Positions 2,542 to 28,988 of a stretch of DNA of 64,000 bases are shown piece by piece. The notes beneath the pieces are model-generated. The model made no database searches, was not told the DNA's origin, and saw only the letters and a list, made by a program, of their open reading frames with translations. The position numbers and the translations under genes are program-made. The stretch is from a bacterium (GTDB lineage Bacteria; Electryoneota; RPQS01), in NCBI GenBank assembly GCA_036504735.1, contig DASXUQ010000019.1, forward strand, positions 372,001 through 436,000, in the 5' to 3' direction. Numbering within the stretch: the first letter of the stretch is position 1; every line of letters begins with the position of its first letter.

Positions 2542-2836
2542 GTTTAGGGATCGCGCAATATAGAGTAAAGAGCGTCATGCGGGAGAACGCCCCCCAGAGT
2601 GCGTTTTGGCGTCGGCTGCAAACAGCCAACACCGCAACGCAACGCGAGGAATCCCAATCTACCTCAATTCCCGCCAACATGCAAGCTGGAGGCGGCCTCC
2701 ATTTTTCGCTTGCACCCAAGTTCCATGCACCCGCAGGTACGAACTCCCAACTCAAGCCGGGCCGCCCACTTCGCTGAACATCACAATTCCATATCCGCTT
2801 AAATATCTATTATATACCACTAAAATCATCATCCTC

Positions 2837-2866
2837 TTGACAATCGGCCTTGAACAAATGTATATT
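2837..2866 (+). promoter_or_regulatory. Near-consensus promoter with no protein gene downstream
   Basis: TTGACA (2837-2842) and TATATT (2861-2866) are separated by 18 bases. The hexamers are identical to those of the promoters before the MarR gene, ispG and tolQ. Transcription would start near 2873 and read into hairpins, then meet the convergent glycosyltransferase gene. Confidence 0.7.
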
Positions 2867-2872
2867 AAGAGT

Positions 2873-2990
2873 GGCGTCTTCCGGTCTTTCCATCTAACAA
2901 AAATGGACACAGCAAACCATGTCCACTTGGCCAAAGCAACACGCAGGAGCGTGTTGCCTAATCACTTTTTCGGCGTTTTTCGGCCTTTTT
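2873..2990 (+). ncRNA. Candidate small RNA with two hairpins
   Basis: The predicted transcript contains a hairpin with arms TGGACA and TGTCCA and a 10-base loop, then a perfect 9-bp hairpin (GCAACACGC 2936-2944, loop AGGA, GCGTGTTGC 2949-2957). U-rich runs follow at 2966-2970, 2975-2979 and 2986-2991. There is no ribosome binding site plus start. The promoter is strong, but the U-run begins 8 bases past the stem, so termination is uncertain, and hairpins of this look also occur as repeats elsewhere. No known RNA family could be assigned. Confidence 0.35.
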
Positions 2991-3120
2991 TACAACGTTC
3001 AGACCGTCGGATGTTCAGTATTTTCTAAGAGCAAAGCAGTTCGTTTGGTATAAAATATTTTTTCTGTTAAGAGAACGGCCCGACACCCCGTTAAACACTT
3101 CAATTTTGGTTTCTTGGCTT

Positions 3121-4525: not shown

Positions 4526-4554
4526 TTGACATTGTGTGGTTAAGGCTGTATATT
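4526..4554 (+). promoter_or_regulatory. Sigma-70 promoter of the MarR gene
   Basis: TTGACA (4526-4531), 17 bases, TATATT (4549-4554). The expected start, about 4561, is only a few bases before the ATG at 4564, so the message would be nearly leaderless. Confidence 0.8.
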
Positions 4555-28959: not shown

Positions 28960-28988
28960 TTGACAATTCAGAGGTTTCTTAGTATATT
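28960..28988 (+). promoter_or_regulatory. Sigma-70 promoter of ispG
   Basis: TTGACA (28960-28965), 17 bases, TATATT (28983-28988). The start would be near 28995, with a leader of about 70 bases. Confidence 0.85.

Follow-up and report, generated by a model that had tools for sequence, protein, structure and literature searches.

A candidate ORF-less copy of a dispersed, promoter-bearing element that shares its end with the ALKHG gene

The main known example in bacteria of a long-lived intragenomic population of sequences with one helper gene is the REPIN–RAYT system, in which each genome has one protein gene or a few that persist vertically, and a non-autonomous extragenic population shares the recognition sequence flanking the gene (PMC8049555, PMC3116915). 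The element described below resembles it in these respects. Classic REPs are palindromes marked by a GTAG tag (PMC3733652). MITEs and other insertion-sequence derivatives have ORF-less copies whose ends are those of an ORF-bearing element. The small terminase subunits of phages bind DNA sites, which in some phages lie within or next to the subunit's own gene.

We analyzed a 64,000-nt stretch of a bacterial contig (the window), in which a promoter reading into a hairpin RNA had been proposed at 2837–2990 (the original prediction). On balance, we favor reading the segment 2837–3072 as one copy, without the ORF, of a dispersed two-part element composed of the ALKHG gene and many non-coding copies that share the end of this gene. 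Within its unusual family, the window feature is unremarkable. Its parts are the following:

2837–2866, + strand: sigma70-type promoter TTGACA-18-TATATT (11/12), the 5′ part of the candidate element; similar promoters recur upstream of other box copies.
2904–2925, + strand: 6-bp hairpin, placed by a sequence pattern search as a degenerate relative of REP-like palindromes tagged CTAC (GTAG when read on the opposite strand).
2936–2957, + strand: perfect 9-bp hairpin, which, judged from the family copies, belongs to a dispersed REP-like family, with the one-sided tag CTAAT at 2958–2962.
2987–3020, + strand: (TTTCAGNN)n octamer array in degenerate form, from model R1; in the own-genome copies such an array precedes the box.
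3031–3064, + strand: conserved 34-nt box, window copy GCAAAGCAGTTCGTTTGGTATAAAATATTTTTTC, from the dispersed family alignment.
3065–3072, + strand: TGTTAAGA, genome-specific 3′ end of the candidate element, where similarity between copies stops, from pairwise homology.

The promoter was confirmed at the position originally given. Four sites of at least 11/12 were found in the 64-kb window versus 0.3 expected from first-order Markov resampling, the other three being located at 4526, 28960 and 40599, all with the hexamers TTGACA/TATATT. The first of them precedes the MarR gene; the sites at 28960 and 40599 are presumably those before ispG and tolQ. The window promoter is one of those found upstream of the box copies. 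No terminator-like site was called after the hairpins in the window.

Both hairpins that had been claimed are present, the 6-bp one (TGGACA..TGTCCA) at 2904–2925 and the perfect 9-bp one (GCAACACGC-AGGA-GCGTGTTGC) at 2936–2957. A family akin to the 6-bp hairpin, xACACAGCAAGCTGTGTx followed by (A/G)CTAC, occurs at several loci of the own and related genomes (22 matches vs. 3 in the reversed control), and its tag is the complement of the GTAG tag of the classic REPs (PMC3733652). Near-identical copies of the 9-bp hairpin were found at many unrelated loci of seven related genomes, and the own genome contains 16 palindromes within two mismatches of it, most of which differ by paired stem changes. 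The usual one-sided tag of this family is CTAGT, replaced by CTAAT in the window copy. A short palindrome, many copies, paired stem variation and a one-sided tag are the marks of a REP, and the 9-bp hairpin shows all of them. The likeness of the window hairpins to the GTAG-tagged REP palindromes (PMC3733652) comprises the stems of 6–9 bp, the short loops, the one-sided tag, the paired variation of the stems and the occurrence of Y1 transposase genes in the genome, six of which (Y1_Tnp) were found in the own genome. They differ in that CTAGT is not the reverse complement of GTAG, which leaves the 9-bp family outside the GTAG class proper, in that the 6-bp copy is degenerate, and in that the palindromes are lodged in the element and do not define it. 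Judged from their sequence, both hairpins are best read as REP-like repeats, with no sign of a dedicated RNA. The proposed hairpin non-coding RNA of ~100 bases is not supported, since its stems belong to dispersed REP-like families present at unrelated places in the own and related genomes. The paired changes anticipated in the two stems do exist, but they occur between repeat copies and not between orthologues of an RNA gene. Palindromic repeats (GTAGGGGCACGG..CCGTGCCC; GTCCGCCCTTCGGGCG..) also lie between promoter and box at L152, L158, L161, L155 and L164, as in the window copy, and an extragenic palindrome-like sequence at 2447–2530 of the window (GAACCTCGGGCT..AACCCGAGGTCCTTCC) resembles repeats near other genes of the own genome.

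The conserved part of the locus, 2987–3072, is situated just downstream of the feature originally described, and the conserved partner of the promoter, the 34-nt box at 3031–3064 (consensus GTAACGCAGTTCGTTTGGTCAAAAAACATTTTCC), falls outside that interval. The repeat 2987–3072 belongs to a family with 28 matches in the own genome, some of them to the octamer part only, the box being carried at about 26 places; it was also matched in five relatives. Model R1 matched the window copy at G000:C19:374987-375071 with E 3e-16. The box is rigid, as nearly all aligned copies are free of indels over ~75 nt, in which three or four TTTCAGNN octamers are followed by GTAACGCAGTTCGTTTGGTCAAAAAACATTTTCC. According to the sequence model, octamers and box are not always together, and other genera of the family have the box on its own. 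The pattern AGTTCGTTYGGTCAAAAA, with at most one mismatch allowed, gave 6–17 matches in eight of the 11 family genomes, none in the reversed control and one stray match in 28 other genomes of the phylum. Boxes are present in nine of the 11 family genomes, one of which has a variant box. Separately, dozens of TTTCAGNN octamer arrays without the box were seen in the own genome (e.g., G000:C9:206977-207016 and G000:C8:220528-220568), some of them after gene ends and as inverted pairs.

The box is linked to the promoter and is typically located ~80–190 nt downstream of it. When 86 copies with enough upstream sequence were searched within 260 nt upstream of the box, a sigma70 promoter of at least 9/12 was detected in 52 (vs. 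13% of mononucleotide shuffles) and one of at least 10/12 in 28 (vs. 1.6% in shuffles). Two other roles of the box were considered and rejected. As a promoter, it lacks a conserved −10 at constant spacing, and in several copies it lies 2–60 nt from start codons; as a coding C-terminus, it is read in varying frames, and only the ALKHG ORFs end there consistently.

Each promoter–box unit might be a non-coding RNA gene whose short transcript varies in its 5′ part and is constant in its 3′ part, which ends at the box. The promoter is strong, its distance from the box is fairly constant, and T-runs precede the box. However, the conserved part is devoid of structure (the consensus fold of the box alignment contained no pairs and no predicted secondary structure), the middle is unconserved between orthologous copies, the hairpins are REP-like copies, and no Rfam family matched the window, nothing relevant being returned at either gathering or relaxed thresholds. 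The query 2750–3050 retrieved two separate repeats and nothing else of the supposed RNA from 40 related genomes. Apart from these repeats, the sequence from the promoter to 2965 had no match in the 40 relatives, contrary to its reading as a conserved RNA. The fold of the 120-nt RNA barely exceeded its shuffles (z −1.95). Neither the box fold nor Rfam nor the comparison of orthologous copies revealed a conserved structure with covariation between orthologues. We regard an RNA gene as very unlikely. A search for named relatives via the glycosyltransferase yielded distant homologues only.

In four copies, an ORF ends exactly in the box, and three of these ORFs form one family of ~140 aa with the motif NALKHGLRATDELFL, which was named ALKHG. 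The junction of ORF and box recurs in all 15 family ALKHG ORFs or fragments, each having a recognizable box at or within ~16 nt of the stop. Most ALKHG ORFs have a promoter a short distance before their start. The ALKHG start codon of the own genome is immediately preceded by the octamer array, so that the short copies resemble this module minus the ORF. The gene and the box also co-occur between genomes: ALKHG was found in nine of the 11 family genomes, and the two that lack it, G007 and G010, also lack boxes.

The variants of the box match the ALKHG genes of their own genome. In G005, both ALKHG genes have variant boxes, unlike the common form, and a search with this variant pattern, run as a test of a prediction, detected 17 dispersed copies in G005, none in the control and none in G007 or G010. 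All boxes examined in G008 read TTTTGTC, including that of its ALKHG gene, and this form is kept even at loci shared with the congener G002, whose boxes mostly read TTTGGTC. In G004, the short and the ORF-bearing copies have the last 39–41 nt at the box end in common (92–98%) and nothing upstream. These patterns in G005, G008 and G004 indicate that the dispersed sequence tracks the ALKHG gene. A match of dispersed copies to the gene-adjacent sequence of the same genome is likewise a trait of REPIN–RAYT. An alternative is that the ALKHG gene family expanded and that the copies are its decaying remnants, with no present function, which agrees with the absence of the ORF from most copies, the existence of partial ALKHG ORFs (L345, L348) and the divergence of the middle. 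Neutral decay would not, however, leave the box and promoter conserved and the middle not, and boxes tracking the ALKHG variant of their own genome are not expected from it; this explanation seems to us very unlikely. In another family, a distant ALKHG homologue (G033:C1:24286-24870) is followed after its stop by the box-like GGGTTTGTTTCGCAAAAG, dispersed copies of which were not found in the G033 genome.

Searches of ALKHG against Pfam, NCBIfam and PADLOC, and against the PDB by sequence, returned nothing significant. No transposase signature was seen, plasmid and phage records gave no match, and no paper containing the string ALKHGL was found in the literature searched. The profile phrog_9231 (terminase small subunit) was weakly matched by 10 of 12 ALKHG proteins (best E 6e-6; none in Pfam), and in a viral contig an ALKHG-like ORF lies ~0.5 kb after a terminase-large-subunit-like ORF. 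This viral homologue itself had no phrog match, and its predicted structure is helical, with a pLDDT of 44. At the profile level, ALKHG weakly resembles the phage small terminase subunits, and the recognition-like sequence at the end of its gene recalls a pac or cos site adjacent to a small terminase gene, with the differences that the box sites are scattered through the genome and that the collection of phage records holds no match. Since the small terminase subunits of some phages have sites at their own genes, it is reasonable to suppose that ALKHG may bind the box as its recognition sequence.

Pairwise comparison of the own-genome copies showed that similarity mostly stops at +41 to +45 from the box start, while its upstream extent is variable. 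Neither a defined left end nor terminal inverted repeats were found, nor any target-site duplication (looked for unsystematically), and the arms of the window copy are only weak (71%) or AT-rich, unlike the terminal inverted repeats of a MITE. In just one genome, a copy separates groES from groEL: the gap between these genes measures 60–220 nt in seven family genomes versus 549 nt in G002, where it holds a box ~40 nt before groEL. ORF-less copies sharing the ends of an ORF-bearing element, and one copy inserted in an operon gap, bring MITEs and insertion-sequence derivatives to mind. The family differs from them in lacking terminal inverted repeats, target duplication and a known transposase, and in the unrelated internal sequence of most copies. 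The latter, unlike that of a freshly amplified miniature transposon, counts against the element reading.

The full element would consist of a sigma70 promoter, a short 5′ leader, the ~140-aa ALKHG ORF and, at its stop codon, the 34-nt box. Most copies, the window copy included, keep promoter and box but have no ORF, and REP-like palindromes and other repeats would have settled in the variable middle. The copies may constitute a non-autonomous population of long standing, which ALKHG would help to maintain or spread as RAYT does for REPINs. By analogy, the element would work most like REPIN–RAYT (PMC8049555), yet two defining features of that system, the HUH transposase and the hairpin repeat, are missing: the box flanks ALKHG, which has no Y1/HUH tyrosine transposase domain, and the box is non-palindromic, with no predicted hairpin. 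A further difference is that the copies of the two-part element carry a promoter. It is a bolder and rather doubtful suggestion that a phage-terminase-like DNA-binding protein, with no transposase, maintains and spreads promoter-bearing sequences via the box at its own gene's end, as a new kind of intragenomic population. If true, a second, unrelated helper acting with a non-palindromic, promoter-linked sequence would mean that this lifestyle arose more than once; an uncharacterized protein family would gain a testable function, and a class of lone promoters in these genomes could be explained.

The positions of the copies raise the question of a regulon, in which promoter, leader and box would form a cis-regulatory 5′ module of the downstream gene, with ALKHG or another factor binding the box. 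Of the 86 copies, 58 are directed toward the start of a gene on the same strand, which is the next gene downstream and often lies within 100 nt, although individual box–gene distances may be off because the genes were called with a simple codon-based caller. Copies before the same orthologous gene, on the same side and strand, were found in different genera for a radical-SAM gene, a YchF-like GTPase gene, rpoD, leuS and a cystathionine synthase gene, which suggests a function in place and argues against simple mobility. The genome-wide change of the box sequence in concert also fits a regulon. On the other hand, the remaining 28 of the 86 copies point at the end of a convergent gene, as do 10 of the 17 G005 copies and the window copy itself; the downstream genes have no obvious common function; and the box stands on different sides of PhzF, leuS and a response-regulator gene in different genomes. 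We consider a regulon by itself rather unlikely, but regulation and the dispersed two-part element are mutually compatible, and some copies have probably turned into 5′ leaders of neighbouring genes. In the 5′ intergenic region of leuS, boxes were seen in G000 (L288), G009 (L303), G002 (L321) and G008 (L325), directed toward leuS in two genomes and away from it in two. Genes for related proteins with 'LWTRTYGG'-like repeats were repeatedly noticed upstream of box copies in several genomes (L155, L173, L174, L280 and L300).
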